Under the pieces are notes generated by a model. It saw nothing but the letters and a program-made list of their open reading frames with translations. It did not search any database and was not told the origin of the DNA. The position numbers were made by a program, and so were the translations under genes. Of a stretch of DNA of 26,475 nucleotides, positions 4,719-24,372 are shown piece by piece (positions within the stretch are counted from its first letter, which is position 1; the number at the start of each line of letters is the position of its first letter). Source of the DNA: a virus; IMG/VR virus record IMGVR_UViG_3300017724_002943, positions 1 to 26,475 of that record, one strand, 5' to 3'.

Positions 4719-4741
4719 GGTAAACAAAAATAAAAAGTTAT

Positions 4742-10193: not shown

Positions 10194-11150
10194 TTGGCTA
10201 AAAAGAAATTACCTATAATAGTAAGGGATATTAGGGAAAATCCACCTACACCTCTTAATTTTGCAGTTGAAAAAAATATTTCATACTCCCAACTTTCCAT
10301 GTTCACTCAGTGCCCTAAAAAATGGTCACTCCAATATAGAGATGGTCATAAAATTAGTGAGCAAAGTATTCATATGACTTTTGGAACAGCTTTACATGAG
10401 GTTTTACAACATTATTTAGATATAATGTATGATAAAAGTGGAGCTGAGGCTGATAGAATTAATATAGAAGAATTATTTGAAGAAACATTAAGAGAATGTT
10501 ATGCTAATGATTATAAAAAAAATAAAGGCAAACATTTTAGCACACCTGAAGAATTAAGAGAATTTTATGATGATGGTATAGCAATCCTCCAAAATTTCAA
10601 AAAGAAAAAAGGGGGTCATTTTAGTAAAAAAGGATGGTATTTAGTTGGTTGTGAAATACCTATAGTTATTGCGCCTAATTTGCGTCTTAACCGTGTTAAA
10701 TACATGGGTTACTTAGATATCGTAATGTATCATGAACCCACAAATACATTTAAAATAATCGACATAAAAACATCAACAAAAGGGTGGAGTAAATATGCTA
10801 AAAAAGATGAATCTAAACAATTTCAATTAATACTTTATAAATATTTCTTTAGTAAGCAATATAATATACCTATTGAAAATATTGATATTGAGTTTTTTAT
10901 AGTTAGAAGAAAGGTATATCTAGATGGAGAATTTCCTCAAAAAAGAATACAAACTTTCACTCCAGCATCTGGTAGAAATAAAGTAAACAAAGCAACTAAA
11001 AATTTAGATGAGTTTATAAATAAAGCATTTAACTTGGATGGGTCCTATAAAGATAGTATATTCCACGCAAAACCAAGTAAATGGAATTGTACATTTTGTC
11101 CATATAAAGATAATAAAGAACTTTGTAATGCAGTTGGTAAATCTCTTTAA
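10194..11150 (+). CDS. RecB/Cas4-like PD-(D/E)XK exonuclease with probable Fe-S cluster
   Basis: 318 residues from a TTG start; no ATG lies close enough, and the TTG directly gives MAKKKLP, like other starts here. SYSQLSMFTQCPKKW (30-44) is the opening signature of RecB-type nucleases. GTALHEVL has H68, GYLDIVMY has D175, IIDIKTSTKGW has D190 and K192, and QFQLILYKYF matches the conserved Q-x-x-x-Y motif. C40 together with C299, C302 and C311 (CTFCPYKDNKELC) reproduce the one-plus-three cysteine pattern that binds 4Fe-4S in Cas4 and AddB. It probably degrades or resects DNA in recombination, repair or host DNA breakdown. The -33 box of the next promoter lies inside its 3' end. Confidence 0.88.
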   Translation: MAKKKLPIIVRDIRENPPTPLNFAVEKNISYSQLSMFTQCPKKWSLQYRDGHKISEQSIHMTFGTALHEVLQHYLDIMYDKSGAEADRINIEELFEETLRECYANDYKKNKGKHFSTPEELREFYDDGIAILQNFKKKKGGHFSKKGWYLVGCEIPIVIAPNLRLNRVKYMGYLDIVMYHEPTNTFKIIDIKTSTKGWSKYAKKDESKQFQLILYKYFFSKQYNIPIENIDIEFFIVRRKVYLDGEFPQKRIQTFTPASGRNKVNKATKNLDEFINKAFNLDGSYKDSIFHAKPSKWNCTFCPYKDNKELCNAVGKSL

Positions 11151-11195: not shown

Positions 11196-11384
11196 ATGGC
11201 ACAAAAAGAAATGACACTTACAAGTGTAAAAGTAAAAAGTGATTTATTTGAAGATTTTAAAATTGAATGTGTAAAAAGAAAATTTAGTTTTCAAAAATTA
11301 GCAGATAGATCTCTTTTTTTATATTTAACAGATGATGATTTTAGAAAAAAAATAAATTCACAAGTTAATTTAGAAAAAAATTAA
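11196..11384 (+). CDS. Ribbon-helix-helix-like small protein, possible regulator
   Basis: 62 residues. EMTLTSVKVKSDLFEDFKIECVKRKFSFQKLADRSLFLYL has the layout of an Arc/CopG-type ribbon-helix-helix domain: a short strand (TSVKV), a helix, a turn (KRKFS), a second helix. The remainder is a charged tail. RHH dimers bind DNA by the paired strands and often repress their own operon. It is preceded by a predicted promoter and stands at the head of the glycan island, which fits a regulator, but the DNA target and role are inferred. It could equally be an anti-host or structural small protein. Confidence 0.6.
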   Translation: MAQKEMTLTSVKVKSDLFEDFKIECVKRKFSFQKLADRSLFLYLTDDDFRKKINSQVNLEKN

Positions 11385-11407: not shown

Positions 11408-12838
11408 ATGAAGGAAGGTTATATTAAAAGAGAAGAAAGAAAAAAAATTCTTCTTCTAACAGATGATATTAGAGTTCACTCTGGGGTTGCTCAAATTGGA
11501 AGAGAAATAGTAATGCATACTGCCCATAGATACAATTGGGTTCAATTAGCAGGAGCTATTAAACATCCTGATACTGGGAACCTCCAAGATTTAAGTGATG
11601 ATACTAATAAAAAAATGGATCTAGAAGATTCTAATGTTTTGTTATATCCTTGTGATGGTTATGGGGATGAAAAATTAGTTCGTTTAGTTATAGAAAAAGA
11701 AAAACCAGATGCGATTCTTTTAATAACAGATCCACGTTATTTTGAGTGGTTATTTCAAATAGAAGATGAAATTAGAACTAAAATTCCTATAACATATTTA
11801 AATATTTGGGATGATTTACCAGCACCTATGTATAATCAAGATTTTTATGATTCATGTGATGGTTTATTTGGAATTTCTAAACAAACAAAAAATATCAATG
11901 AAATGGTATTAGGGAGTAAAGTTGAAGGAAAAACAATTAAATATATCCCTCATGGATTAAATAATAAAAAGTTTAAGATTTTAAAAAGTGATGATAAGGA
12001 ATTACTAAATTTTAAAAAAGAATTAAATGGAGAAAATAAAATAAAATTTTCACTTTTATTTAATTCTAGAAATATTAGAAGAAAATGTATTCCTGATACA
12101 ATATTAGCTTGGAAATTATTTTTAGATACTTTACCAAAAAAAGAAAGAAACCAATGTCAATTAGTTTTACATACTAATCCTATAGATCAACATGGAACTG
12201 ATCTACCATCAGTAATTAGATTTTTATTCCCAGATGATGATCATAACATTGTAATGTCAACTAATAAACTTTCGATTGAACAAATGAATTGTTTATACAA
12301 TAATGCTGATGGAGTAATATTATTATCCTCTGCTGAAGGTTGGGGATTATCTTTAACAGAAGCTATGTTAACTGGTACTCCTTTTATAGCTAATGTAACT
12401 GGGGGAATGCAAGATCAAATGAGATTTGTAGATAAAAATGGAGATTGGTATACACCAACACCTGATATTCCTTCTAACCATAGAGGAACTTATAAAGAGT
12501 GTGGAGAATGGGCTTTACCTGTATTCCCTTCAAACTTATCATTAGTAGGTTCTCCTAAAACACCTTATATCTATGATGATAGGTGTAGTGCTGAAGAAGC
12601 AGCATTAAAAATAAAAGAATTATACAGTATGAGTAAAAAAGAGAGAGAAGATAGAGGAAAAAAGGGTATGGAATGGGCTTTAGGAGATGAGGCTGGATTT
12701 ACTTCTGAACACCAAGCAACTAGATTTATAGATGCTATAGAAGAAACAATAAGTAATTTTGTACCTAAAAAAGGTTTTTCTTTTACTAGTGATAGTAACA
12801 AGTCAAACAAAGTTTTAAACCATAAATTAATATATTAA
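11408..12838 (+). CDS. GT-B glycosyltransferase, family 4-like (first)
   Basis: 476 residues. The N-terminal Rossmann half begins with KILLLTDDIRVHSGVAQIGREI, the usual opening with a donor-side glycine turn. KYIPHGLNNKKF at about 178-189 is the interdomain region. The C-terminal half holds SSAEGWGLSLTEAM (308-320), the E-x7-E motif (E310, E318) that contacts the nucleotide-sugar donor in GT4 enzymes. GTPFIANVTGGMQDQM follows as expected. It should be a retaining glycosyltransferase using a nucleotide sugar; the sugar and acceptor are unknown. It starts 23 bp after the RHH-like gene and opens the glycan island. Confidence 0.88.
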   Translation: MKEGYIKREERKKILLLTDDIRVHSGVAQIGREIVMHTAHRYNWVQLAGAIKHPDTGNLQDLSDDTNKKMDLEDSNVLLYPCDGYGDEKLVRLVIEKEKPDAILLITDPRYFEWLFQIEDEIRTKIPITYLNIWDDLPAPMYNQDFYDSCDGLFGISKQTKNINEMVLGSKVEGKTIKYIPHGLNNKKFKILKSDDKELLNFKKELNGENKIKFSLLFNSRNIRRKCIPDTILAWKLFLDTLPKKERNQCQLVLHTNPIDQHGTDLPSVIRFLFPDDDHNIVMSTNKLSIEQMNCLYNNADGVILLSSAEGWGLSLTEAMLTGTPFIANVTGGMQDQMRFVDKNGDWYTPTPDIPSNHRGTYKECGEWALPVFPSNLSLVGSPKTPYIYDDRCSAEEAALKIKELYSMSKKEREDRGKKGMEWALGDEAGFTSEHQATRFIDAIEETISNFVPKKGFSFTSDSNKSNKVLNHKLIY

Positions 12839-12839
12839 T

Positions 12840-14129
12840 ATGAAAAATACATTTGTTATAAGTTGTCCAATTGATACTTACAGTGGATATGGTGCACGAA
12901 GTAGGGATTTTGTAAAAGCCTTAATAGATCTAGATAAATATGATATTCAAATTTTACCTCAAAGGTGGGGTAAAACTGCTGAAGGTTTTATTGATAATAA
13001 TAAAGAATGGGAATTTTTAAATGATCACATAATTCCACAATTAATGGCAAAACCTGACTATTGGTGTCAAATTACAGTTCCTAATGAATTTCAAGCTATA
13101 GGACAATATAATATTGGTTTAACAGCTGGAATGGAAACAACTATTGTAGATGGAAGTTGGATTGAAGGTTGTAATAGAATGGATTTAATTCTTACATCAT
13201 CTAACCATTCTAAAAAAACATTTCAAAATAGTCAATTTTATAAAGATGGAAATGAAGAAAATCTTATTAAATTAGAAAAACCTATTGAAGTTTTATTTGA
13301 AGGTTTAAATTTAGATGTTTATAAAAAAACAAAAACATTTACAAATTCCGATTTATATAATGAAATTAATTCTATAAAAGAAGATTTTTCTTATTTAACT
13401 GTAGGTCATTGGATGCAAGGTGAATTAGGTGAGGATAGAAAAAATATAGGTTTAACAATTAAAGCATTTTATGAATTATTTAAAAATAGAACAAACACAC
13501 CAGCTTTAATTCTAAAAACTTGTATAGTAAATGGAAGTATTATGGATAGGTCAGAAATACTTAGAAGAATTAATATAATTAAAGAAGGTATCCAAAATGC
13601 TAAAACTCTTCCAAAAATATATGTACTTCATGGTAATTTTACAGACCCTGAAATAAATGAATTATATAATCATCCTAAAGTAAAAGCAATGATTAGTTTA
13701 ACAAAAGGAGAAGGTTTTGGGAGACCATTATTAGAATTTAGTGCTATTGATAAACCCATTATAGCTTCAAATTGGTCAGGACATTTAGATTTCTTAGAAG
13801 AAGAACACACAGCATTAGTAGGAGGTAAATTAGACAAAATTCATCAATCAGCAATTGTTCAAAATATGATTATACCTGAAGCTGAATGGTTTAGACCTGA
13901 ATTACAAGATATAGGGTATTCTTTTAATATTATTTGGGAAGAATATAAAGAATTTATAAAAAAAGCAAAAAAACAAGGATCGCATTCAAGAAATAATTTT
14001 TCATTTAATAAAATGAAAGATAAAATAGAAGAAATTTTTAATAATAATTTAATAGATTTACCTAAAAAGCTAGATTTAAAAATTGCTAATATTGAAATGC
14101 CTAAAAAACCAACACTAAAAAAAGTATAA
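12840..14129 (+). CDS. GT-B glycosyltransferase, family 4-like (second)
   Basis: 429 residues. The start resembles the preceding gene in layout (CPIDTYSGYGARSRDFVKAL, with a glycine turn). IEVLFEGLNLDVYKK (149-163) corresponds to the interdomain hinge, and SLTKGEGFGRPLLEF (286-300) is the E-x7-E motif (E291, E299). DKPIIASNWSGHLDFL follows. It is probably a retaining transferase acting on the same glycan as its neighbour. It begins one base after the previous stop. The two GT4 genes are not close copies, so they probably add different sugars. Confidence 0.85.
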   Translation: MKNTFVISCPIDTYSGYGARSRDFVKALIDLDKYDIQILPQRWGKTAEGFIDNNKEWEFLNDHIIPQLMAKPDYWCQITVPNEFQAIGQYNIGLTAGMETTIVDGSWIEGCNRMDLILTSSNHSKKTFQNSQFYKDGNEENLIKLEKPIEVLFEGLNLDVYKKTKTFTNSDLYNEINSIKEDFSYLTVGHWMQGELGEDRKNIGLTIKAFYELFKNRTNTPALILKTCIVNGSIMDRSEILRRINIIKEGIQNAKTLPKIYVLHGNFTDPEINELYNHPKVKAMISLTKGEGFGRPLLEFSAIDKPIIASNWSGHLDFLEEEHTALVGGKLDKIHQSAIVQNMIIPEAEWFRPELQDIGYSFNIIWEEYKEFIKKAKKQGSHSRNNFSFNKMKDKIEEIFNNNLIDLPKKLDLKIANIEMPKKPTLKKV

Positions 14130-14130
14130 A

Positions 14131-14628
14131 ATGGTAGAAACTGATAAATTAATAAAATGTAATAGATGTGGGGGAGATGCTTGTTATAAGCAAGAAATAA
14201 ATGGTATAGAATTATATTCTTGTTACGGTTGTGGGTTTCAAACTTCATCTATAATGAAAAAAGGAGAAAAGTTTTTTGAAGAACAAATGGAAATTCTTCC
14301 TGAGTTATATAAAGCTTTACTTGGAGAAGATGAAGAGGGAATGATTTGGATGCCCCAAACAGTAAATCTACCACAACAAGGGATGGTTTTTGCCTCTGTA
14401 GCTAAAGATCATGCTGTTGTAAATGAAACCCCCTCTCAAGATAATTATGAATGGGCTGCTGTAAAGGCTATTCCAATACCTGAAGAAGATAAAGAAAAAT
14501 ATCCTATACCTAATAAAGAAGGAGAATTTTATGAATGGAGAATGGATATGACTACTGAAAAAAGATTTGCTCATAATGATTTTGTAGAAGCTTTAGATTA
14601 TATTGGGATATTTGGTAAAGAAGAGTAA
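14131..14628 (+). CDS. Zinc-ribbon protein of unknown function in glycan island
   Basis: 165 residues. A zinc ribbon is visible at the N-terminus: IKCNRCGG (C10, C13) and YSCYGCGF (C31, C34). The rest has no motif I know; it is acidic and ends with EWRMDMTTEKRFAHNDFVEALDYIG. It begins one base after the second GT4 gene and ends 3 bp before the GT9-like gene, so it is embedded in the glycosylation genes. It may bind nucleic acid or stabilise a partner, but position is the only guide. Confidence 0.8.
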   Translation: MVETDKLIKCNRCGGDACYKQEINGIELYSCYGCGFQTSSIMKKGEKFFEEQMEILPELYKALLGEDEEGMIWMPQTVNLPQQGMVFASVAKDHAVVNETPSQDNYEWAAVKAIPIPEEDKEKYPIPNKEGEFYEWRMDMTTEKRFAHNDFVEALDYIGIFGKEE

Positions 14629-14631
14629 ATA

Positions 14632-15561
14632 ATGAAAAAAATAGCTGTCTATATTGATATGCCAGCATTAGGGGATACACTAGCTGCTATTCCTACAATA
14701 AACAAGCTTTACCAAGCACATGATACACCTATAACTGTATTTACTTACCATCCACTTTTATTTAAAGACCACCCTTCAGTTTTAGAAGCATTATATGTTC
14801 ATCAATCAGATCATAACTTATATGATTATTTTTATACAACACCATTTAAGGAAAAGATTAAAATTAATGGTAAAGATGTAGAATTTAAACATTCCCAAAT
14901 TGATATAAGACAATTTCATGCTTTATCTTTAGGTTTTTCATTAACCCCAAAAGAAATGGAGATTGACCTTTATATAAAAGAAGATTGGGATATAGGATTT
15001 AAAGATTATGTTATAATTCATCCAACTTATACTTGGGATTCTAGAACATGGGATACAAAGAAATATCAAAAATTAATAGATAAACTAAATAATAAAGGGA
15101 TACCAGTAGTAGCTATTGGTAAAAATAGCTCAGAAACTGGTTTTCATAATATATCTAAACCAGTAATGGATATTAAAATCCAATATGGAGTAAATCTATT
15201 AAACCATCCTGAGGGAAGTTTACCTAAAATTAGAAGTTTAATAGATAAAGCTAAATGTTTAGTAGTTATGGACTCAGGGATATTACATTTAGGAGGTACT
15301 ACAGATGTAGAAATTATTCAATTAGGATCATCAATTGATCCTTATTTTAGAGCACCTTATAGGAAAGGAAGTCAAAAACATAAGTATACTTTTATTGGAG
15401 GTGGTTGTGATTTATTTTGTACTTCAAATATGAAACATCATTTAAAAGAATGGGACACAATTCAAGGTGTACCTCCTTTAGTAGGATGTTTGGAAAATAA
15501 ACCCTCATTTGAATGCCATCCTGATGTAGATAAAGTATTTAATAAAATTTTAACATTATGA
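14632..15561 (+). CDS. GT9-like (heptosyltransferase-type) glycosyltransferase
   Basis: 309 residues. IDMPALGDTLAAIPTINKLYQ at the N-terminus is the GD-x-L/I-x-x-x-P motif of the GT9 heptosyltransferases, which normally add heptose from ADP-heptose to the lipopolysaccharide core. YVIIHPTYTWDSRTWDTKKYQKLIDKL matches the central HP...R.W...L motif, and VVMDSGILHLGG corresponds to the D-S-G-x-x-H donor-binding loop. A cysteine-bearing C-terminal region is less typical. Together with the HldE-like kinase downstream it suggests heptose-like sugars in the glycan. It overlaps the next gene by 4 bp. Acceptor is unknown. Confidence 0.82.
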   Translation: MKKIAVYIDMPALGDTLAAIPTINKLYQAHDTPITVFTYHPLLFKDHPSVLEALYVHQSDHNLYDYFYTTPFKEKIKINGKDVEFKHSQIDIRQFHALSLGFSLTPKEMEIDLYIKEDWDIGFKDYVIIHPTYTWDSRTWDTKKYQKLIDKLNNKGIPVVAIGKNSSETGFHNISKPVMDIKIQYGVNLLNHPEGSLPKIRSLIDKAKCLVVMDSGILHLGGTTDVEIIQLGSSIDPYFRAPYRKGSQKHKYTFIGGGCDLFCTSNMKHHLKEWDTIQGVPPLVGCLENKPSFECHPDVDKVFNKILTL

Positions 15562-16403
15562 AAATATTAGTAACAGGTGGGGTGGGTTTTATAGGAACTG
15601 CTCTTATAAAAAAATTATTGGATGAAAAACATATTGTTCATTCTTTAGATAATTATAAAATTGGGTGTAAAGAAAATGAAATTGAAGGTTGTTACTACCA
15701 TAATGTAGATATAGAAAATATTCACCTAATGGATAAAGATTTTGATTTAATTTTCCATTTAGCAGCTTTATCTAGAATTCAACCTTCTTTTAATAAGCCT
15801 GAAGATACATTTAGAGTTAACACTATTGGAACTCAGAAAGTATGTGAATTTGCTAGATATATTGGAGCTAAAGTTGTATATTCTGGTTCATCTTCAAAAT
15901 GGCATAATCCATATCAATCACCTTATGCTGCATGTAAACATATGGGTGAAGAAGCTTGTAAAATGTATAAAAAAACATATGGGATGGATATTGAAATAGC
16001 TAGATTCTATAATGTTTATGGTCCTGGTGAAATAATAGAAGGAGATTGGGCAGCTGTTATAGGAAAATGGAGACGTCAAGTTAAAAATAATGAATTAATA
16101 ACAATAGTAGGAGACGGAGAGCAAAGAAGAGATTTTACTTATATAAAAGACATAGTAGATGGCTTGTGGAGAATTGGGATGAAAAATGAAAAACATATAG
16201 ATGCATGGGAATTAGGTAATGGTGAAAATTATTCCATAAATGAAGTATATCAAATGTTTTATGAAAAATTTAACATAGAATGTAAACACATCCCAGAACA
16301 AAAAGGAAACTATAGAAAAACATTAAGAGAAAATGATGATGCTCTTAAAAGATTAGGTTGGCTCCCAACAGGTAATTTATTATATTATATCCAAAGTTTA
16401 TAA
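15558..16403 (+). CDS. SDR nucleotide-sugar epimerase/dehydratase (UDP-glucose 4-epimerase-like)
   Basis: 281 residues, extended short-chain dehydrogenase. GGVGFIG (7-13) binds NAD(P), LDNY (30-33) follows the second strand, FHLAALS (67-72) is typical, SGSSS (109-113) and YAACK (Y123, K127) form the catalytic set. RFYNVYGPGE and GDGEQRRDFTYIKDIVDGL are characteristic of nucleotide-sugar epimerases. The protein is about 40 residues shorter than most GalE-type enzymes, mainly at the C-terminus. The specific substrate cannot be told from motifs alone. It overlaps the GT9-like gene by 4 bp and is followed after one base by a GT2-like gene. Confidence 0.88.
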   Translation: MKILVTGGVGFIGTALIKKLLDEKHIVHSLDNYKIGCKENEIEGCYYHNVDIENIHLMDKDFDLIFHLAALSRIQPSFNKPEDTFRVNTIGTQKVCEFARYIGAKVVYSGSSSKWHNPYQSPYAACKHMGEEACKMYKKTYGMDIEIARFYNVYGPGEIIEGDWAAVIGKWRRQVKNNELITIVGDGEQRRDFTYIKDIVDGLWRIGMKNEKHIDAWELGNGENYSINEVYQMFYEKFNIECKHIPEQKGNYRKTLRENDDALKRLGWLPTGNLLYYIQSL

Positions 16404-16404
16404 T

Positions 16405-17028
16405 ATGAAAATAAGTTATGCAATTACAGTCTGTGATGAGTTTGTAGAAATCCAAAGATTAATTCCATTTTTATTAGAAAATAAAAAATATGGGGATGAA
16501 ATCGTAGTTTTATATGATTCCATAAATGGAGACGAAAAGGTTGAAGAATTTTTAAGAGCAAAATCAATTAATGGTGAGTTTAGTTGGCATAAAGATAAAT
16601 TTAATAATCATTTTGCAGATTGGAAAAATAAACTTACTGAAAAGTGTGATGGAGATTGGATATTCCAAATTGATGCAGATGAAATGCCTCATATAGATTT
16701 AATTACATATCTTCCTGAAATTATTTTAAGTAATCCTAAAAATGAAGTTATAAAAGTTCCAAGAATTAATACTGTTCATGGTTTAACTGAAGAATATGAA
16801 AGAAAATGGGGGTGGAGAGTAAATGAAAAAGGTTGGGTCAATTGGCCTGATTTTCAATGGAGAATTTGGAAGAACCATCCTAAAATAAAGTGGGTAAATA
16901 AAGTTCATGAAGTATTAGATGGTTATAGTACTTATGCTGATTTGAATCAAGAAGAACGTTTCTCTCTATATCACCCTAAAGATATAGAAAAACAAGTTAA
17001 ACAAAATAATTATTATGAAAGTATATAG
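16405..17028 (+). CDS. GT2-like glycosyltransferase
   Basis: 207 residues. The GT-A opening MKISYAITVCDE is followed by DGDWIFQIDADEMPH with the metal-binding D-A-D (90-92). The C-terminal part has WRVNEKGWVNWPDFQWRIWKNHP and WVNKVHE, a pattern common in short family 2 transferases of surface polysaccharide clusters. It should be an inverting, nucleotide-sugar dependent enzyme, cytoplasmic. It overlaps the GT10-like gene by 14 bp. Confidence 0.82.
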   Translation: MKISYAITVCDEFVEIQRLIPFLLENKKYGDEIVVLYDSINGDEKVEEFLRAKSINGEFSWHKDKFNNHFADWKNKLTEKCDGDWIFQIDADEMPHIDLITYLPEIILSNPKNEVIKVPRINTVHGLTEEYERKWGWRVNEKGWVNWPDFQWRIWKNHPKIKWVNKVHEVLDGYSTYADLNQEERFSLYHPKDIEKQVKQNNYYESI

Positions 17029-17941
17029 TAATTACTTACCTATTGAAAGGTATGAAAAATTTATTTTAAGTAAAGATAAATTTAAAGATCTTCCTATAAC
17101 TATCTTTAATGACTATTTTACTAAAGATAATTGGAAAGAGTTAGGAGAAAATCCAATAAATATTCTTATTTTAAATGAACCAGACCAATTATTTGGACAC
17201 CACACTCAAGTTCAAAAATTCAATAATAATTATAGTTTAATTTTAACTTGGGGTCAAAATGTAATAGATAATTGTGATAACGCAAGATTATTTATTCATG
17301 GTGAAACTAATTTAGACTTGGAATATATAAATTCATTCTATAAAAATAAAGAAAGAAAATTTGAAGTAACTTTTTTAAGTGGTGTGTTAAAATTAATTGA
17401 GGGGCATAAATTAAGACAAAAAATATTATCTATAGAAAATGAAATAAATATTCCTACAAGGTTTTGGAAGGTATTAAGTGATTTTAATTATGAAACAGGA
17501 AATAGACCAGGTTATAGAGACCCAGGTTGTGAAGTTATAACTACAAAAGGAACACCTATTGAAGGGGAAGGAAAAAAAGAAGTTTGGAATAGAAATTCAA
17601 TGTTTCACATAGCTGTAGAAAATTCAAGAAATTTAAATTATTATACAGATAAAATAGTAGATTGCTTTGCTACTAAAACTATTCCTATATATTGGGGTGC
17701 ACCTAATATAGGAGATTACTTTAATAAAGATGGAATAATTACATTTGAAAATGAAGAAGATCTAATAGATATTTTAAATAATTTAACAGAAAAAGATTAT
17801 AAAAATAAGTTGGAAGCTGTAGAAGAAAATTATATATTAGCACTTAATAATGGTTTCTTTTTTGAAAGATTAGAACGATTTTTAGACTCAATTATAGAAC
17901 TTAATAATATAACCAATAGGGGAATTAGCTCAGATGGCTAG
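17015..17941 (+). CDS. GT10-like (alpha-1,3-fucosyltransferase-type) transferase; 3' end overlaps a tRNA
   Basis: 308 residues. The C-terminal half carries the GT10 signature, FHIAVENSRNLNYYTDKIVD followed by TKTIPIYWGAPNIGDYF (197-236), equivalent to the FxxxFENS...TEKxxDxxxxxxxPxYxG motif of alpha-1,3-fucosyltransferases that use GDP-fucose. The N-terminal half is divergent. A GDP-fucose synthase-like gene lies at 21406, supporting a GDP-6-deoxysugar donor. The last residues NRGISSDG and the TAG stop are encoded by the 5' part of the tRNA-Ala gene (23 bp overlap), so the natural C-terminus may have been replaced when the tRNA arrived. The conserved core is complete. Confidence 0.83.
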   Translation: MKVYSNYLPIERYEKFILSKDKFKDLPITIFNDYFTKDNWKELGENPINILILNEPDQLFGHHTQVQKFNNNYSLILTWGQNVIDNCDNARLFIHGETNLDLEYINSFYKNKERKFEVTFLSGVLKLIEGHKLRQKILSIENEINIPTRFWKVLSDFNYETGNRPGYRDPGCEVITTKGTPIEGEGKKEVWNRNSMFHIAVENSRNLNYYTDKIVDCFATKTIPIYWGAPNIGDYFNKDGIITFENEEDLIDILNNLTEKDYKNKLEAVEENYILALNNGFFFERLERFLDSIIELNNITNRGISSDG

Positions 17942-17992
17942 AGCGCTTCGCTTGCACCGAAGAGGTCATCGGTTCGACTCCGATATTCTCCA
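17919..17992 (+). tRNA. tRNA-Ala (anticodon TGC)
   Basis: 74 nt fold into a full cloverleaf. The acceptor stem is GGGGAAT with ATTCTCC (one G-U pair). The D arm is GCTC...GAGC, the anticodon stem CTTCG/CGAAG with loop CTTGCAC (anticodon TGC), and the T arm ATCGG/CCGAT with loop TTCGACT. Discriminator base is A; the following CAA shows that CCA is not encoded. From memory it closely resembles flavobacterial tRNA-Ala genes, supporting the host assignment. It lies in the middle of the glycan island. Confidence 0.95.
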
Positions 17993-18006
17993 CAAAATAT
18001 TAAATA

Positions 18007-18147
18007 ATGAAAGATAATCAAAATAATGGTAACCCTCATACTAATGAAACCCGAAATGGGCTTAATAATAAAATTAGTAAATTAGCAATGTTGGGTCAAT
18101 CTAAAAAAGTAAAATGGTCTGATAAAAGACGTTTTAGAAACATATAA
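18007..18147 (+). CDS. Small basic protein, 46 residues
   Basis: A 46-residue frame begins 14 bp after the tRNA (AATAATG) and ends one base before the next ATG. The N-terminal half is rich in Asn and Thr, the C-terminal half basic (SKKVKWSDKRRFRNI). The spacing, matching start context and fit between the tRNA and next gene support it as real. Function unknown. Confidence 0.55.
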   Translation: MKDNQNNGNPHTNETRNGLNNKISKLAMLGQSKKVKWSDKRRFRNI

Positions 18148-18148
18148 T

Positions 18149-18547
18149 ATGAATAGAAAATATTTACCAACACTATCAGAATTAATAGATCGATTATCTA
18201 TTGTTCAATTAAAAGAAGTTTTCATTACTGAGCATAAAGAAGAATATGCTAAAGAAATAGCAGAAATAACTCATGATATAGGGGAAATAATTAATAATGA
18301 AAAAATTACACTAACAGGAGAAGATGTTAGAGCAATTGTAGTTCTTTCTCAAATGAATCTTCATATATGGCATAATGAAACTAAATATAGAGCAGGAACA
18401 GGAGATGGTAATTTAGGACTAACACATGGATTAAATGGGATAAGAAATACTGCAAAAAATAAAATACAAGAAAACGAAGGAGGAAGAAAAGATTATAAAG
18501 TTGATTGTATAGCAGCTGAATTTAAAGACTGGGAAATATCATGGTAA
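18149..18547 (+). CDS. Protein of unknown function in glycan island
   Basis: 132 residues, probably all helical. LPTLSELIDRLSIVQLKEVFI at the N-terminus is a motif I remember from small proteins next to sugar genes in other phages, but I cannot name a family. The middle is HNETKYRAGTGD and the C-terminus ends in EFKDWEISW. Its last 7 bases overlap the HldE-like kinase gene, suggesting a functional link with sugar activation, but no catalytic motif is visible. Confidence 0.75.
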   Translation: MNRKYLPTLSELIDRLSIVQLKEVFITEHKEEYAKEIAEITHDIGEIINNEKITLTGEDVRAIVVLSQMNLHIWHNETKYRAGTGDGNLGLTHGLNGIRNTAKNKIQENEGGRKDYKVDCIAAEFKDWEISW

Positions 18548-19293
18548 AAATATTAGTAATAGGAGATAGTTGTGTAGATGAATACATTTATTGTACAACG
18601 AATAGATTCTGCCCAGACGCACCTGTACCCATTCTAAAACCTGAATCATATGTTTCAACTGAAGGTATGGCTGGTAACGTAGCTGATAATTTAAGAGCAT
18701 TAGGAGCTGATGTAGATTTAATTTCAAATGCTAATCAAATTAAAAAAACAAGGTATGTTGATGAAAGAACAAACCATATGTTTATTAGGATTGATGAAGG
18801 TGAAGATGATATATTTCCTATAGCTAAAAAAACGCTAGAAAATATTGAATGGGATAAATATGATGCTGTTGTTATAAGTGATTATTGCAAAGGATTTCTT
18901 ACAGAAGATGAAATAGCTTACATTTCTCATCAACATATAAATACTTTTTTAGATACTAAAAAATTATTAAATTCTTGGGCTGAAAATATAGGATTTATAA
19001 AAATTAATGATGTAGAATATAACTACAATTTAGATAACCATTCAATAAATCTAATTGAAAAAATGATTATTACTAGAGGATCTAGTGGGGCTGAATATAA
19101 TGGAATAATGTATCCCGTAGATAAAGTTGATGTTAGAGATACTAGCGGAGCTGGTGATACATTTTTAGCTGGTTTAGTATACGCTTATATAAATGGAAAT
19201 AACATAGCAGATGCCATTAAATTTGCAAACAAATGTGCAACACAGATAGTTCAGAAAAAAGGAACAGCAAAAATTAATAATAGAGAATTATGA
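18541..19293 (+). CDS. PfkB-family sugar kinase, HldE/RfaE kinase-domain-like
   Basis: 250 residues. VIGDSCVDEYIYCTTNRFCPDAPVPIL matches the N-terminal signature of the HldE kinase domain (GDxxxDxYxxGxxxRxSPEAPVP), and GMAGNVADNLRALGA the ribokinase GG-x-A-x-N-x-A motif with one Gly replaced by Met. VISDYCKGFL is the HldE-type SDY-x-KG element, and DTSGAGDTF (200-208) holds the catalytic base D206. The family phosphorylates heptose-7-phosphate on the way to ADP-heptose. The domain is about 60-70 residues shorter than in HldE, and the nucleotidyltransferase domain is absent, so the phage would rely on host enzymes for other steps. It overlaps the next gene by 4 bp. Confidence 0.83.
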   Translation: MVKILVIGDSCVDEYIYCTTNRFCPDAPVPILKPESYVSTEGMAGNVADNLRALGADVDLISNANQIKKTRYVDERTNHMFIRIDEGEDDIFPIAKKTLENIEWDKYDAVVISDYCKGFLTEDEIAYISHQHINTFLDTKKLLNSWAENIGFIKINDVEYNYNLDNHSINLIEKMIITRGSSGAEYNGIMYPVDKVDVRDTSGAGDTFLAGLVYAYINGNNIADAIKFANKCATQIVQKKGTAKINNREL

Positions 19294-19820
19294 AATACGA
19301 ATATAGTAAAAAATTAGGATTAGCAGTTATCCAACCAGATATATTTTATGATTATAGAGGTGAATATGTCGAAACATGGAATATTGAAAATTATAAGGTT
19401 TTTAATCCTAAAGGATCAGGGAATGAAATAATTTTTAAACAAGATGATATTAGTACATCTACTAAACATACATTAAGGGGTTTACATGGTGATAATAAAA
19501 CATGGAAACTAGTATCATGTATTTATGGTTCTTTATTACAAGTAGTTGTTGATATGAATTATGATAGTGCAACATATTTGGAATGGGAGTTATTTACGAT
19601 AAATGATAAAAATAGACAACAAATATTAGTTCCGCCAGGATATGCTAATGGTCACTTAGTAATGAGTGATTTTGGGATATTTAGTTACAAACAGTCAACA
19701 TTATATGGGGGAGCTAAAGAACAATTTACAGTTAAATGGAATGATCCTAAATTAAAAATTCCGTGGCCTATTGATAATCCTATATTATCTTCACGTGATA
19801 AAAATGCAAAACTACTATGA
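19290..19820 (+). CDS. RmlC-like dTDP-4-dehydrorhamnose 3,5-epimerase-type protein
   Basis: 176 residues, cupin fold typical of RmlC. DYRGEYVETW, then DDISTSTKHTLRGLHG (catalytic His H66), GSLLQVVVDM, ILVPPGYANGHLVMSD and FSYKQS (Y133, matching the catalytic Tyr) follow the family order; KIPWP and SSRDKNAKLL close it. In the usual GFAHGF motif the His is replaced by Asn but another His lies two residues on (GYANGH), so the active site is slightly altered. The usual partners RmlA and RmlB are not seen, so the enzyme may use another 4-keto nucleotide sugar. It overlaps the SDR gene by 4 bp. Confidence 0.87.
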   Translation: MKYEYSKKLGLAVIQPDIFYDYRGEYVETWNIENYKVFNPKGSGNEIIFKQDDISTSTKHTLRGLHGDNKTWKLVSCIYGSLLQVVVDMNYDSATYLEWELFTINDKNRQQILVPPGYANGHLVMSDFGIFSYKQSTLYGGAKEQFTVKWNDPKLKIPWPIDNPILSSRDKNAKLL

Positions 19821-20758
19821 AAAAAAACGTATTAATAACAGGAGGAGCTGGTTATTTAGGATCAGTATTAGCTGAAGTATTATTAGATAATGGTTATCAT
19901 GTAACTGTATTTGATAATTTAATGTATAAACAAACATCATTATTACATTTATGTGATAATAAAAATTTTAATTTTATTAAAGGGGATGTTACTAATAAAA
20001 AGGAATTTCTACCACAAATTGTTAATCATGATATAATTATCCCTTTAGCAGCTATAGTAGGAGCGCCAGCTTGTGACGCAAATAAAGAACTAGCAACAGC
20101 TATTAATTATGGTCAAATACAATTTATTGTAGATAACTTAAGAAAAAATCAAAAGTTATTAATGCCCAATACAAATAGCCAATATGGTAGTTCAGAAAAT
20201 ATAATTACCGAAGATTCACCATTTAATCCCTTATCTCATTATGCTATTACTAAATGTAATGCTGAAGAATATATAATGGATTGGGGTAATGGAATTTGTT
20301 TAAGGTTAGCTACTGTATTTGGGTCATCTCCTAGAATGCGTACTGATTTATTAGTAAATGATTTTGTATATAAAACAATGACTGAAGGTGTATTAGTTTT
20401 ATTTCAATCCCACTTTAAAAGAAATTATATACACGTAAGAGATATAGCTTATACTTTTCTCCATTGTATTGAAAATTATAATGAATTAAATGGGGAAGTA
20501 TTTAATGTAGGACTATCCGATGCTAATTTAAATAAAAAAGAATTAGCTGAAACTATAAAAAGATACTTCCCAGAATTAGTAATTATAGAGAATGAATTTT
20601 CAACTGACAAAGATAATAGAAACTATATAGTATCTAATGATAAATTAGAAAACACAGGATGGAAACCACAATATACTATTGAAGATGGTATTGATGAGTT
20701 ACTATCAGCATATAAAATGGTAATTACAGATAATAATAAAAAATATACAAATTTATGA
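19817..20758 (+). CDS. SDR nucleotide-sugar epimerase/dehydratase
   Basis: 313 residues, extended SDR. GGAGYLG (9-15) is the NAD(P)-binding loop, VFDNL follows strand 2, IIPLAAIVGAPAC holds the family's H/P-LAA motif, NSQYGSS is the active-site Ser region and YAITK (Y142, K146) the catalytic pair. RLATVFGSSPRMR and RNYIHVRDIAYTFLHCI are characteristic of nucleotide-sugar modifying members. The IVGAP...C segment is like that of SDR proteins in surface-polysaccharide clusters that act with RmlC-type epimerases, fitting its neighbour. The precise reaction is not clear. It overlaps the methyltransferase gene by 4 bp. Confidence 0.87.
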   Translation: MKKNVLITGGAGYLGSVLAEVLLDNGYHVTVFDNLMYKQTSLLHLCDNKNFNFIKGDVTNKKEFLPQIVNHDIIIPLAAIVGAPACDANKELATAINYGQIQFIVDNLRKNQKLLMPNTNSQYGSSENIITEDSPFNPLSHYAITKCNAEEYIMDWGNGICLRLATVFGSSPRMRTDLLVNDFVYKTMTEGVLVLFQSHFKRNYIHVRDIAYTFLHCIENYNELNGEVFNVGLSDANLNKKELAETIKRYFPELVIIENEFSTDKDNRNYIVSNDKLENTGWKPQYTIEDGIDELLSAYKMVITDNNKKYTNL

Positions 20759-21402
20759 TAACACTAGATACAAACCATCCTATAGCATATGACTCCCCTG
20801 ATCATATTTGTCCTTGGGGTACAAAAAGAGATAATTTTACAAGTAAAGGATTTATAGATGAAACATTAAATTTTCATTCCCAAAAAGGAAAAGATAAAAT
20901 AAATTTTTTAGATTTGGGGTGCTCAGGTGGTCAACTTGTAATAGATTATATTAATAGGGGACATTTAGGTGTAGGATTAGAGGGAAGTGATTATAGTGCA
21001 ATAAATGGAAGAGCTAATTGGCCTAAATATTATAATAAAAATTTATTTACTTGTGATGTTACAAAAAAGTATGAATTGTTTGAAAATGATATAAAATTAA
21101 ATTTTGATATTATTACAGCTTGGGAAGTTATAGAACACATTAAACCTGAAGATCAAAAACCATTTTTTAAATACATTAATGATAATTTAAATAGTGGAGG
21201 ATTTTTTTGTGGTTCTATTTCTACTAGAGAAGAAGTTATAAATGGTTACTCTTTACATCAAACTGTTTGGAATGAAGCTACTTGGTATAAAAACTTCCCA
21301 GATATTCTAAAAGAAACTAATTTAGAATTATATCAATATCCTTTTAACAATAAAGTTAGGGATTTAAATGATTCTTTTTATATTTTATTACTAAAAAATT
21401 AA
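20755..21402 (+). CDS. Class I SAM-dependent methyltransferase, sugar or lipid type
   Basis: 215 residues. FLDLGCSGGQL (51-61) is motif I, LGVGLEGSD (71-79) the acidic post-I loop, FDIITAWEVIEHI the motif II with the EVIEH of UbiE/Coq5-like and sugar O-methyltransferases, and LNSGGFFCGSIS motif III. The short N-terminal region contains CPWG. Located between sugar-modifying genes, it most likely methylates a glycan or nucleotide sugar, possibly capping the chain, but this is inferred from position. The next gene starts 3 bp after the stop. Confidence 0.83.
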   Translation: MITLDTNHPIAYDSPDHICPWGTKRDNFTSKGFIDETLNFHSQKGKDKINFLDLGCSGGQLVIDYINRGHLGVGLEGSDYSAINGRANWPKYYNKNLFTCDVTKKYELFENDIKLNFDIITAWEVIEHIKPEDQKPFFKYINDNLNSGGFFCGSISTREEVINGYSLHQTVWNEATWYKNFPDILKETNLELYQYPFNNKVRDLNDSFYILLLKN

Positions 21403-21405
21403 ATA

Positions 21406-22293
21406 ATGAAAATATTAGTAACAGGATCTACAGGATTTGTAGGTAAACATTTAATTAAGGCATTAGAAAAAGAAAACCATGAAATACTTAGTTTTAATTC
21501 TTCTAATTTTACAAAGATGTGGTATTGTCAAAAAGATACTATTGATGTAATAATTCATTTAGCTGTTAAAACAGCAGCAGGTGGATATTGTCAAAACCAC
21601 CCAGGTGAACAGTGGATAGTAAATAATAGTATTAATTCTGATATGTTAGCTTATTGGGCACAATATCAACAAAGAGCTACTATGATTACCTTTGGATCTT
21701 CTTGTGGTTATAATAATGATGTCATTAAAACCGAAGATAACTATTTAGTGGGTGAACCTGAAAAAGGTTATGAAGTATATGGAATGGTAAAACGTAATTT
21801 ATTAGTGGGATTAAAAGCATTATCAAAAGAATTTCAAATGGACTCTAACTACATGATACCATCAGTGTTTTATGGGCCTAATTATGATTTAAAAGATAAA
21901 CATTTTATATTTGATTTAATTCGAAAAATAGTTAATGCTAAAAATGGAGGTGAAGAAGTTGTTCTTTGGGGAGATGGAACACAGGAAAGAGAATTAATTT
22001 ACATTGACGATGCTATTAATATTATTATGGCTTGTATGAATAATCCTGAAGCCCCAAAAATGTTTAATCTATCTTCTGGGAGTACTTACACACTTAAAGA
22101 ATATGCACAAACTATTTGTGATATAATAGATTATGATTTTGATTTAATTAAATGGGATACAAATGCTTTTGTAGGTTCTCCTAGTAAAAAATTAATTAAT
22201 ACCCACTTAAAAGGATTCAATTTCACCCCCCTTAAACTTGGTTTAGAAAAAACAATAGAATATTATGAAAATAGCATCAGTAGTAGTAAATAG
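21406..22293 (+). CDS. GDP-L-fucose synthase-like SDR reductase/epimerase
   Basis: 295 residues. GSTGFVG (7-13) binds NADP. FGSSCGYN (97-103) contains the Ser and the Cys that act in GDP-fucose synthase (GSSCIYP in Fcl/WcaG), and GYEVYGMVKR holds the catalytic Y125 and K129. MIPSVFYGPNYDLKDKHFIFDLIRKI and VVLWGDGTQERELIYIDDA are the typical Fcl motifs. The enzyme would convert GDP-4-keto-6-deoxymannose to GDP-fucose or a related sugar; the preceding dehydratase (Gmd) is not found here, so the substrate would come from the host. It pairs logically with the GT10-like transferase. The last 29 bases overlap the next gene. Confidence 0.85.
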   Translation: MKILVTGSTGFVGKHLIKALEKENHEILSFNSSNFTKMWYCQKDTIDVIIHLAVKTAAGGYCQNHPGEQWIVNNSINSDMLAYWAQYQQRATMITFGSSCGYNNDVIKTEDNYLVGEPEKGYEVYGMVKRNLLVGLKALSKEFQMDSNYMIPSVFYGPNYDLKDKHFIFDLIRKIVNAKNGGEEVVLWGDGTQERELIYIDDAINIIMACMNNPEAPKMFNLSSGSTYTLKEYAQTICDIIDYDFDLIKWDTNAFVGSPSKKLINTHLKGFNFTPLKLGLEKTIEYYENSISSSK

Positions 22294-23137
22294 AAATGAC
22301 GGTTATAAAGATTTAGAAAGAGGAATACTTCATTTTAAATTTATGAGTGAAACTTTTGATGAAGTTAATTATGTAGATTGGAATTCATCAAATGGTTCTT
22401 TTTTATGGGAGATTGAAAATAAAATTCCATCTAAAGGCAAAATAAAACATTTTTGTATCCCTTCTAATATAGTTAACCAAATTATTATGGACCCTAATGC
22501 TCAAAAATGTAATGAAGCTTTAAGTAGAAATATTGCTATTAAAAGAAGTAATGCTGATTGGATTATTTCTACTAATATTGATATTATCCCTCCTACAAGA
22601 AAAGAATTAAAATCTTTAATTAAAACTTTAGATAAAAATACTTTTTATACCATTTCTAGAAGAGAAGCTCCTAAAGATATAGTATATAATACTAAAATAA
22701 CTAAATTAAGAGAATCCCTTTCAACAATCCCAGCTAGACATTTTCCTGCAAAAGTATCACCTAATGATAATTATAGTTTAATAAATTGTTGTGGAGATTT
22801 TCAAATAGCACATAGAGATGTTTGGAATAAAATTAAAGGATTTGAAGAAGAAATGATTTATGCCTGTTATGTAGATACTAATATTCAGAAAAAAGCAGTA
22901 TTAAATGATTATAAATTAGAAGTATTATATGAACCTGCATTATATCACATGGAACATGGAGCTTATTATACCAAAGAAGATGGTACAAGAATGTTAGATA
23001 ACAATAATGAAGGCCCTTACAAAGGGGATAACAAAGCTTATAATGATCCTTGGAAATGGGTTGAAACTTTCTCAAAAACTAATAATACAAAAGAGTGGGG
23101 ATTAGGAAATGTTGATATAGAAGTAGAGGTAATTTAA
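22265..23137 (+). CDS. GT-A glycosyltransferase, family 2/7-like
   Basis: 290 residues. The opening MKIASVVVNRNDGY is GT-A like. ADWIISTNIDIIPP (97-110) holds the metal-binding D-x-D equivalent, here as N-I-D with only one Asp, a variation. NCCGDFQIAHRDVWNKIKGFEEEMIYACYVDTNIQKKA recalls the C-terminal GT7/galactosyltransferase motif (GDFxxxxRxxWxxIxGFDE). YEPALYHMEHG fits the third metal-ligand histidine region. It is the last gene of the glycan island and overlaps the GDP-fucose synthase-like gene by 29 bp, the longest overlap of two coding regions here, with a good ATG start at MKIASVVV. Confidence 0.8.
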   Translation: MKIASVVVNRNDGYKDLERGILHFKFMSETFDEVNYVDWNSSNGSFLWEIENKIPSKGKIKHFCIPSNIVNQIIMDPNAQKCNEALSRNIAIKRSNADWIISTNIDIIPPTRKELKSLIKTLDKNTFYTISRREAPKDIVYNTKITKLRESLSTIPARHFPAKVSPNDNYSLINCCGDFQIAHRDVWNKIKGFEEEMIYACYVDTNIQKKAVLNDYKLEVLYEPALYHMEHGAYYTKEDGTRMLDNNNEGPYKGDNKAYNDPWKWVETFSKTNNTKEWGLGNVDIEVEVI

Positions 23138-23146
23138 TATTTATAA

Positions 23147-23497
23147 ATGTACACCCCAAAAACTATACCAATGGAAAAAGATAAATTAGTCAAAGAAAGA
23201 GAAACCACAGGTATTGAAATTATATATAATGATAGTGAAGATTTAAAAACATTATCTTCAAAAGAAGAATTTGTATCTTTCATCTTAGAAGATAGTTTTA
23301 AAACCATAGAGATGGCTTTGAAAAATAAATTGGATAAGGTTGAACTATTTAATATATTTAATTTATCAATAGTAGTAGAAATAGAAAGAAATAATTATAA
23401 AAATGTTCTCAATAATTTAATAAAATTTTATATCTTAGAAGAGAATTACGAAAAATGTTCATTAATAAGAAGTATTATAAATAAATATGAAATATAA
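23147..23497 (+). CDS. Helical protein, paralogue of the gene at 25177
   Basis: 116 residues, unknown function. From about residue 38 it aligns by eye with the protein encoded at 25177: a helix around EEFVSFILEDSFKTIEMALKN, VVEIERNNYKNVLNNLIKFY, and an ending EENYEKCSLIRSIINKYE. The last part resembles the UVR-type helical hairpin in which an ExYExxxxIR motif repeats, but this is only a resemblance. A later in-frame ATG at 23171 (MEKDKLVKE) is an alternative start. It follows the glycan island after 9 bp and is followed by an overlapping small gene. Confidence 0.7.
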   Translation: MYTPKTIPMEKDKLVKERETTGIEIIYNDSEDLKTLSSKEEFVSFILEDSFKTIEMALKNKLDKVELFNIFNLSIVVEIERNNYKNVLNNLIKFYILEENYEKCSLIRSIINKYEI

Positions 23498-23636
23498 ATT
23501 TACAACTAAAAACTCAAAAGATGCTATTGGTTATGTAAAAGCAGATAGTAAATATGAAGCTGAAATATTAGCATCTCAAATGAAACAATTAAAATTAAAA
23601 GACTTTTTAAAAATATTTGAAGTAAAAGAAGCATGA
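23487..23636 (+). CDS. Small protein, 49 residues
   Basis: The ATG at 23487 lies within the last codons of the preceding gene and the TGA overlaps the next ATG (ATGA), giving a 49-residue protein. The start MKYKFTTKNSKDAIGYVKADSKYEAEILAS reads like a compact strand-helix unit, and KDFLKIFEV ends it. The tight fit on both sides, with no alternative reading, supports a real gene. Function unknown. Confidence 0.65.
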   Translation: MKYKFTTKNSKDAIGYVKADSKYEAEILASQMKQLKLKDFLKIFEVKEA

Positions 23637-24043
23637 GTCAAGATTTTGAATTTGAAGGAAAAGATGATTTAAAAAAACTATTTGAGGATATTTTAGGATC
23701 AAACATTATTTTAAAAGATACTTTAGCTAATCAAGATCAAGAAGAAAATGTATTTTGTTTAATAGTAAATAAATTAGATACAGCTCATAAAGATGATGAA
23801 GCTTTATTTGAATTATCAGGTATAGATTTGACAAAATCAAAGAATGAACTATGGGTTGTTATTGAAGCTTTATTAAAAATAGCATATGGAAATGATGCTT
23901 TTGATATGATTATGTGGTATATTTTAGATAGATTCAACCCAGATGGAAAAGTTGTCCCTTTTGAAGATGAAAAAGGAAAACAATTTTCATTGTTAACTGC
24001 AAAAGATCTATTTTCATTTGTAAAACATAGATTTCCAAACTAA
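23633..24043 (+). CDS. Acidic protein of unknown function
   Basis: 136 residues, acidic, mostly helical by appearance (EGKDDLKKLFEDIL, NELWVVIEALLKIAY, FDMIMWYILDRF). A loop NPDGKVVPFEDEKGKQFSL connects to a last helix. No catalytic motif or membrane segment is seen. It is joined to the preceding small gene by an ATGA overlap and is the last gene before the promoter at 24046. I do not recognise the family. Confidence 0.75.
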   Translation: MSQDFEFEGKDDLKKLFEDILGSNIILKDTLANQDQEENVFCLIVNKLDTAHKDDEALFELSGIDLTKSKNELWVVIEALLKIAYGNDAFDMIMWYILDRFNPDGKVVPFEDEKGKQFSLLTAKDLFSFVKHRFPN

Positions 24044-24045
24044 AT

Positions 24046-24076
24046 TTGGATACCCCAAAACATTTTTGTATATTTA
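24046..24076 (+). promoter_or_regulatory. Bacteroidota-type promoter
   Basis: TTGG at 24046-24049 (TTTG from 24045), 19 bp, TATATTTA at 24069-24076. The -7 box is nearly identical to that before gene 44 (TTTTGTATATTTA in both). It lies in the 61-bp gap before the DksA-type gene and probably drives the run of small genes downstream. Confidence 0.7.
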
Positions 24077-24104
24077 CGTGAAATTTTAAAGGTTACGTAT
24101 AATT

Positions 24105-24371
24105 ATGAATATGACAAAAGATAAACTAAAAATGATACCTTGTATAGCTTGTGGTGAACCTATGCCCGAGTTAAGACTAACTAAATTTGGTTATAAAGTT
24201 TGTGTAAATTGTTCAACAACTGGAGCTTATAGAGCTGTATCTACAATTAATGGAAGTGGGGATCATACATGGAATGATATTCAAATATTAACTCCTGAAC
24301 AATATAAATCTTATGAAAAAACAGAAGAATTATCTTCAAAAACACTAAAATCATTTAATAAAGAAGATTAG
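24105..24371 (+). CDS. DksA/TraR-type zinc-finger protein
   Basis: 88 residues. CIACGEPMPELRLTKFGYKVCVNC (C13, C16, C33, C36) is the four-cysteine zinc finger of DksA/TraR proteins, including the typical CxxCGxxxPxxRL and YKVCVNC parts. Classical DksA binds RNA polymerase through the secondary channel using a long coiled coil. Here only about 12 residues precede the finger and a short charged tail follows, so a full coiled coil is missing, and the protein may bind polymerase differently or something else. It has its own predicted promoter. A second ATG at 24111 is an alternative start. Confidence 0.8.
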   Translation: MNMTKDKLKMIPCIACGEPMPELRLTKFGYKVCVNCSTTGAYRAVSTINGSGDHTWNDIQILTPEQYKSYEKTEELSSKTLKSFNKED

Positions 24372-24372
24372 T

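Follow-up and report, generated by a model that had tools for sequence, protein, structure and literature searches.

A modular glycan locus with a constant core and a predicted heptose-remodelling cassette in marine T4-like phages

Gene content and genomic slot of the island

The window analyzed here is the whole of a 26,475-nt sequence (IMG/VR record IMGVR_UViG_3300017724_002943), a 26.5-kb fragment that represents a short piece of a larger phage genome and carries an island of glycosyltransferase (GT) and sugar-nucleotide genes. A sequence-only reading, made without database searches, had placed this island in a T4-like phage and described it as a glycan module with six GTs, three short-chain dehydrogenases/reductases (SDRs), an RmlC-like protein, a heptose-kinase-like protein, and a methyltransferase. 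Open reading frame (ORF) analysis recovered each of these genes where that reading had placed it, every one on the plus strand. Pfam and NCBIfam searches supported the SDRs, the RmlC-like protein, the kinase-like protein, and the methyltransferase, as well as five of the GTs at least at the domain level, while the sixth (22265-23137) is recognized by motifs only. The packing with 1- to 29-bp overlaps described earlier holds in part, with overlaps of 4 to 29 bp accompanied by gaps of 1 to 3 bp and a single gap of 207 bp. This gap is the only real intergenic space in the island and holds a tRNA-Ala gene (17919-17993), which had been left unlisted together with the zinc-ribbon protein at 14131-14628 and the protein hyp18 at 18149-18547. 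The T4-like origin is borne out by T4-type gp20 and gp23 genes in relatives of the window, and the GC content is steady across the island. The locus and its flanks consist of the following features:

10194-11150, plus strand: PD-(D/E)XK nuclease, conserved left flank (PHROG exonuclease match)
11196-11384, plus strand: small conserved protein, left flank (92 to 97% identical in close relatives; also in phage immuto)
11408-12838, plus strand: GT4a, core glycosyltransferase (PF00534, 2.5e-9; 22/25 islands)
12840-14129, plus strand: GT4b, core glycosyltransferase (PF00534, 2.8e-7; 24/25 islands)
14131-14628, plus strand: Znr, core zinc-ribbon protein (CxxC...CxxC pattern; 25/25 islands)
14632-15561, plus strand: GT9, heptosyltransferase family (PF01075, 1.6e-12; weak TibC and Waa-type matches; 2/25 islands)
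15558-16403, plus strand: SDR1, nucleotide-sugar epimerase type (PF01370, 2.6e-46)
16405-17028, plus strand: GT2a, core GT-A glycosyltransferase (PF00535, 22.5 bits, slightly under the cut-off of 23.3; 24/25 islands)
17015-17941, plus strand: GT10, fucosyltransferase family (PF00852, 2.2e-6; cyanophage relatives)
17919-17993, plus strand: tRNA-Ala (TGC), overlapping the 3' end of GT10
18149-18547, plus strand: hyp18, cassette protein (88% mean column identity across 8 islands)
18541-19293, plus strand: HldK, short heptose-7-phosphate-kinase-like PfkB protein (PF00294, 3.9e-21; rfaE_dom_I, 2.5e-38; GAGD motif)
19290-19820, plus strand: putative RmlC-fold heptose C3/C5-epimerase (dTDP_sugar_isom, 1.5e-41; PDB matches)
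19817-20758, plus strand: SDR2, putative Cj1427-type nucleoside diphosphate (NDP)-heptose C4-dehydrogenase (PDB 6vo6/6vo8)
20755-21402, plus strand: MT, S-adenosylmethionine-dependent methyltransferase (PF13489, 2e-10), adjoining SDR2 and SDR3
21406-22293, plus strand: SDR3, GDP-fucose-synthase-like putative C4-reductase (GDPFucSynFcl, 4.1e-33; GSSC and YxxxK motifs)
22265-23137, plus strand: GT2b, last cassette gene, GT2/7-like (motifs only)
23147-24999, plus strand: conserved right flank, three small proteins and an HNH protein (24373-24999)

The island occupies a fixed genomic slot. Related contigs were gathered through their clamp-loader gene, which introduces no bias for glycan genes (the set includes some near-duplicates), and those reaching at least 3.2 kb beyond the nuclease gene were treated as informative (n = 31). 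GT4a and GT4b lie within 3.5 kb after the nuclease in all 31, and the distance from nuclease to GT4a is 247 to 346 bp throughout. The cultured Flavobacterium phage immuto (MW353175) shares the slot, its gene order, its flanks, and the core GT4a-GT4b-Znr-GT2a at 38 to 55% identity, so that the island synteny for which the sequence-only reading had advised a search does exist in other Bacteroidota phages; the immuto cassette differs, with aminotransferases and other GTs and no heptose block. Taking immuto as a guide, the island-bearing marine T4-like phages probably infect Bacteroidota. The order polB, clamp, clamp loader, nuclease, GT4a, GT4b, GT2a is kept in Microcystis phage Mel-JY01, with other genes interspersed and GT4a annotated as two ORFs, and in Rhodothermus phage RM378 a single gene about as long as GT4b comes after a GT4a relative. 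Outside viral records, a genome scan found GT4b in only two contigs of metagenome-assembled genomes (MAGs), both with the same phage locus. One Woesearchaeota MAG and one Flavobacteriaceae MAG were found to include phage contigs carrying the locus (L277 and L278).

The possibility that the block is a host segment joined by misassembly was rejected, as it recurs at 99% identity over 23 kb in a second contig, and the position of the GT4 pair in the 31 informative contigs likewise speaks against misassembly or chance. No near-identical DNA was found among 50,697 phage records, and PADLOC defence models gave no match to ten island proteins.

Constant core and exchangeable cassette

A comparison of 25 nonredundant islands (387 ORFs of at least 80 amino acids [aa], falling into 104 gene clusters) uncovered an architecture that the first reading had overlooked, a fixed core combined with a variable cassette. 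The zinc-ribbon protein occurs in all 25 islands, GT4b and GT2a in 24 each, and GT4a in 22, and the absences mostly reflect contig-end cuts or divergence beyond the cluster threshold. GT4a also gave a weak match to the GT4-conflict Pfam family (19 bits against a cut-off of 26). The AlphaFold (AF2) model of the zinc-ribbon protein has a confident fold (pLDDT, 89.5), for which a Foldseek search of the PDB returned no match (best E value, 1.0). The highest VIA Z was 3.8, covering 67 residues, and a viral library contained one uncharacterized phage relative; these results do not demonstrate a new fold.

The right-hand part of the island changes freely. Singletons account for 68 of the 104 gene clusters, and the span from GT4a to the HNH gene extends from 5.1 kb (the core and one GT2 gene) up to 21 kb. 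Cassettes of relatives contain extra SDRs, DegT aminotransferases, methyltransferases, GT2, GT10, UDP-sugar dehydrogenase, and WbqC-like genes. Among the cassette genes of the window, GT9 has no match in the PDB, and the solved structures nearest to SDR1 are of the UDP-glucose 4-epimerase and UDP-xylose synthase types. No other cassette protein is as conserved as hyp18, which is present in the same 8 islands as GT10 and has no match in Pfam, PHROG, or phage records. The tRNA-Ala gene at the end of GT10 was found, among 12 loci tested, only in the window and its sibling contig (IMGVR 3300020165_000031). GT2b has no Pfam match, its PDB profile search gave only chance matches to cystatin, and its AlphaFold model is unusable (pLDDT, 39). 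A profile comparison (hhalign) between GT2b and the GT2 cluster c8 was not significant (E value, 0.14); the two are alternative last genes, never found together in one island.

Pairwise comparisons point to exchange at two scales. Between the window and contig 17781_000051, most flanking replication genes are 93 to 98% identical at the protein level, whereas GT4a, GT4b, and GT10 are 72%, 61%, and 51% identical. The island is not the sole mosaic stretch, since groES (78%) and the small clamp-loader subunit (71%) differ too. The window and its sibling contig are 99% identical over 23 kb, with approximately 0 to 6 mismatches per 250 bp, except at 19750-20750, the SDR2 gene, where 12 to 30 mismatches per 250 bp occur. 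The synonymous divergence (dS) of SDR2 is 0.31 against 0 to 0.08 for the other genes, and together with the local mismatch peak this indicates that SDR2 was swapped as a single gene. When the window is compared pairwise with its relatives, most ratios of nonsynonymous to synonymous divergence (dN/dS) fall at 0.05 to 0.35, and GT10 reaches 0.48 against one divergent allele. The island genes are under purifying selection, and their function is kept.

The glycan role proposed by the sequence-only reading is supported, and the locus is real, modular, and under selection, belonging to a type of phage glycan locus that is already known in general terms. Its build recalls the O-antigen and capsule loci of bacteria, here placed in a T4-like phage. 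The architecture of fixed slot, constant core, and swappable cassettes is newly described, and the putative heptose-remodelling pathway newly recognized.

A putative heptose-remodelling block

HldK, the RmlC-fold protein, SDR2, MT, and SDR3 are interpreted as a heptose-remodelling block because of their PDB matches, the diagnostic residues of the epimerase, and the gene context of bacterial SDR2 relatives. The three SDRs have Epimerase-type Pfam matches of 2.6e-46 (SDR1), 5.4e-31, and 6.1e-34. SDR2 aligns over its full length (residues 1 to 304) with PDB entries 6vo6/6vo8 (2.2e-106, 358 bits), the next structure scoring 71 bits. The PDB names this protein a "putative sugar-nucleotide epimerase/dehydratase"; we take it to be Cj1427 of Campylobacter jejuni, a GDP-heptose C4-dehydrogenase. 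The gene context supports this assignment: of the bacterial relatives found, the two closest have their SDR2 gene beside GHMP kinase and nucleotidyltransferase genes, and one of these loci also encodes an Fcl-type SDR and a SIS isomerase, resembling a GDP-heptose locus.

The RmlC-like protein matches C. jejuni heptose epimerases in the PDB at 128 to 132 bits, against 102 bits for dTDP-rhamnose enzymes (true RmlC). Heptose C3/C5-epimerases carry Gln85, Asn121, and His123 in place of the RmlC-type residues (PMC7949155), and the window protein has Q84, N120, and H122 at these positions together with the catalytic residues H66, K73, Y133, and D170. The best PDB match of HldK is a heptose 7-phosphate kinase. 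SDR3 is closest in the PDB to GDP-L-fucose synthase (2.2e-22), its nearest structures not being MlghC/DdahC; the C. jejuni C4-reductases are related to this same GDP-fucose-synthase type of SDR. MT, which has no PDB match, probably acts on the sugar. In C. jejuni, the order of the route is C4-dehydrogenase, C3/C5-epimerase, and C4-reductase (PMC10680097).

The first reading had measured the cassette against the textbook rhamnose, fucose, and ADP-heptose routes and regarded it as a set of incomplete pathways diverting host nucleotide sugars. That yardstick does not suit these enzymes, which fit the heptose-remodelling route of the C. jejuni capsule instead; the reading holds only in part, as upstream NDP-heptose supply genes are missing while the remodelling part would be essentially complete. 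A dTDP-rhamnose pathway was rejected, given the lack of an RmlA-type NTP_transferase in the ten, mostly fragmentary, phage records searched, SDR scores far under the RmlB and RmlD cut-offs, and the heptose-type residues. The swappable part of the window locus would accordingly be a Campylobacter-capsule-type route to a modified heptose and not to rhamnose or fucose. All four of SDR2, SDR3, HldK, and RmlC are present in 7 of the 25 islands, and a less related phage contig (L093) contains SDR2, RmlC, and HldK relatives together with a cytidylyltransferase-like gene.

The presumed flavobacterial hosts may mostly be unable to make this sugar. No SDR2 relative was found at an E value of 1e-50 in 397 genomes of Flavobacteriaceae, the family of the Flavobacteriaceae MAG, and the search is able to find relatives, since three strong ones (1e-73 to 1e-100) were found in 395 Bacteroidota genomes. 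Supply genes for GDP-manno-heptose (GmhA, HddA, and HddC) were sought through the SIS_2 isomerase and NTP_transferase (pyrophosphorylase) families in ten phage records, most of them fragments and three of them 158 to 164 kb long, and neither family was found; the NDP-heptose precursor is therefore presumably taken from the host. Matches to the HldE nucleotidyltransferase domain in 60 Flavobacteriaceae genomes were below the cut-off only.

Candidate acceptors, related systems, and significance

These observations can be joined into a model. Because they are constant across islands, the four core proteins (GT4a, GT4b, Znr, and GT2a) are most likely responsible for assembling the inner, unchanging portion of a single oligosaccharide. 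The variable cassette would set the outer sugars, and in the window phage an NDP-manno-heptose would be oxidized at C4, epimerized at C3 and/or C5, reduced, and perhaps methylated. Beyond these two sequence-supported steps, the host would supply common nucleotide sugars and the NDP-heptose precursor, and GT9, GT10, and GT2b may add the outer residues. Least certain is the final step, in which phage virion proteins would receive the glycan in the cytoplasm, producing a strain-specific virion coat that could be altered by swapping of cassettes or of single genes. This combination of a fixed-core glycan locus, a swappable heptose cassette, and a glycan placed on virion proteins is our leading interpretation, with a probability of roughly 0.5. 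As to the acceptor, virion proteins rank first at about even odds, ahead of the host surface, which we consider rather unlikely, and DNA, which seems improbable.

A virion acceptor is favored by the predicted solubility of the machinery. A transmembrane (TM) scan, requiring at least 2 credible TM segments per ORF, found no polytopic membrane protein (flippase, polymerase, or transporter) among the 387 ORFs; signals in SDR2 correspond to Rossmann strands, and the scan recognized a holin and other membrane proteins elsewhere in the genomes of relatives. A Wzx/Wzy or ABC polysaccharide export locus was rejected on the same result. The constant core with variable outer enzymes is also consistent with an acceptor that does not vary, for instance a virion protein. 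In a 164-kb relative (IMGVR 3300025874_000005), a second GT cluster (L267:3927-8795) lies within the tail gene block, between a 3,007-aa tail protein and the tail sheath, and comprises a 903-aa fusion of GT4 and GT25, a GT4, and a GT9/TibC-like gene.

Several points weigh against this interpretation. GTs of the lipopolysaccharide (LPS) core work at the inner membrane and need no flippase, so that the membrane argument is compatible with LPS-core modification. The DNA glucosyltransferases of T4 adjoin replication genes, as the island core does here. SDR3 is closest to GDP-fucose synthase and not to the C. jejuni reductases, and fucose-type chemistry is possible. HldK is of the PfkB type, which belongs to the beta-anomer route, and in C. 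jejuni the kinase of the GDP-heptose route is of the GHMP type, which makes the nucleotide carrier ambiguous. The isomerase and pyrophosphorylase families missing from the ten, mostly fragmentary, phage records count on the same side.

Remodelling of the host surface, by phage GTs that modify the LPS core or a lipid-linked glycan at the cytoplasmic face and so block rivals or the re-adsorption of progeny, is the usual reading of GT clusters in marine T4-like phages (PMC7029224). GT9 and the HldE-type gene belong to LPS-core families, and modification of the inner core requires no flippase. However, neither an enzyme that initiates a lipid-linked glycan nor a flippase, polymerase, or ligase is present in the 25 islands, and the genome scan found no relative of GT4b in bacteria other than on phage contigs. 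We regard this explanation as doubtful.

Glycosylation of a modified base in phage DNA, as an evasion of restriction, had also been listed among the possible targets by the sequence-only reading. In Bacteroidota phages and in Mel-JY01 the core pair is next to the genes for DNA polymerase, clamp, and nuclease, the GT4a relative of RM378 adjoins replication genes as well, and varied sugars on phage DNA have been reported (Pyle 2024, cited in PMC12619734). On the other hand, the PF00303 family, whose enzymes make hydroxymethylated pyrimidines, is absent from two large island-bearing genomes (158 and 164 kb), while its positive control matched, and the 164-kb relative carries homologues of 7-deazaguanine genes. 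DNA modification with 7-deazaguanine is not known to involve sugars. DNA decoration is thus disfavored and quite unlikely. Homologues of DpdA, QueC, QueD, QueE, and FolE, marking a 7-deazaguanine DNA-modification route, were observed in this relative (L260-L261) and in immuto. A search with PF01702 (TGT) gave no match even in immuto, where DpdA is annotated, and so cannot exclude DpdA; for the Tet/JBP family the positive control also lacked a match, making that search uninformative. The idea of nonfunctional cargo or stuffer DNA from bacteria, mentioned as one option for the LPS clusters of cyanophages (PMC3037559), is already contradicted by purifying selection in all tested genes, intact catalytic motifs, and a core constant across distant phages, and is highly implausible.

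With several GT and sugar-nucleotide genes in one block, the window belongs with the known glycan/LPS clusters of marine T4-like phages. The cyanophage LPS clusters of S-SM2, S-SSM7, and P-SSM2 (Sullivan et al. 2010, PMC3037559) are likewise one-direction clusters of GT, SDR, and heptose-enzyme genes. They lie near hli03, phoH, and tRNAs, whereas the window locus lies beside polymerase, clamp, and nuclease genes, between the nuclease and HNH genes, and has neither that location nor the shared set of seven LPS gene clusters. Only the HldE-type kinase (47%) and GT10 of S-SM2 are clearly homologous to the window; SDR2 has a weak match there (23%), and the core (GT4a, GT4b, Znr, and GT2a) and the heptose-type RmlC have none at 1e-5. 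S-SM2 also has phosphoheptose isomerase and nucleotidyltransferase genes not seen in the window locus. The host-recognition cluster of pelagimyophages (PMC7029224) is similarly variable and GT rich, and rfaE-type genes occur in these phages, but it surrounds the tail fibers, unlike the window locus in the replication region with its constant GT core. The capsular heptose genes of C. jejuni (Cj1427, Cj1430/MlghB/DdahB, and Cj1428/MlghC/DdahC) form a trio of the types predicted here, C4-dehydrogenase, RmlC-fold epimerase, and Fcl-like reductase; the window set differs in residing in a phage, in the type of its kinase and reductase described above, and in the isomerase and pyrophosphorylase, which were not found in the ten phage records. 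The N-glycan system of the chlorovirus PBCV-1 capsid, with virus-encoded GTs acting outside host organelles and a conserved glycan core shared by all known chloroviruses (PMC7826918), is an analogy in manner of working only; PBCV-1 is a eukaryotic algal virus whose acceptor is proven, whereas virion proteins are a candidate acceptor for the window locus.

Other genes of the window are also of note. The family B DNA polymerase (T4 gp43-like; 414-3025) is encoded by two ORFs of 560 and 310 aa with a four-base overlap, a split conserved in relatives of the window, whereas the polymerase of immuto is annotated as family A. A chaperone set (4239-7045) with Hsp20-like, GroES-like, and full-length GroEL proteins (57% identity to immuto GroEL) sits inside the replication gene block and is kept in relatives. 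A methyltransferase-like ORF (8259-8894), GAMT/RMT2-like by eye, lies between two clamp-loader genes and is present in the window lineage and the G001 clade and absent from other close relatives.

Since 2010, glycan clusters have been recognized in marine T4-like phages, with a function uncertain enough for stuffer DNA to be considered. The present locus supplies evidence for selection, combines a constant core with swappable parts, and offers a sugar that can be tested for, namely a remodelled heptose that the presumed hosts would lack. We tentatively suggest, while considering it somewhat short of even odds, that it acts as a phage "serotype locus," whose soluble and self-contained machinery would coat virions with a strain-specific glycan, including a Cj1427-type heptose lacking in the host, and which would diversify by swaps in the manner of a capsule locus. 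If true, the remodelled heptose would be a chemical marker for virions, host LPS, and DNA that could discriminate among three long-discussed targets, and the locus would represent a viral source of rare-heptose enzymes and an example of a lytic phage that diversifies in a serotype-like manner.

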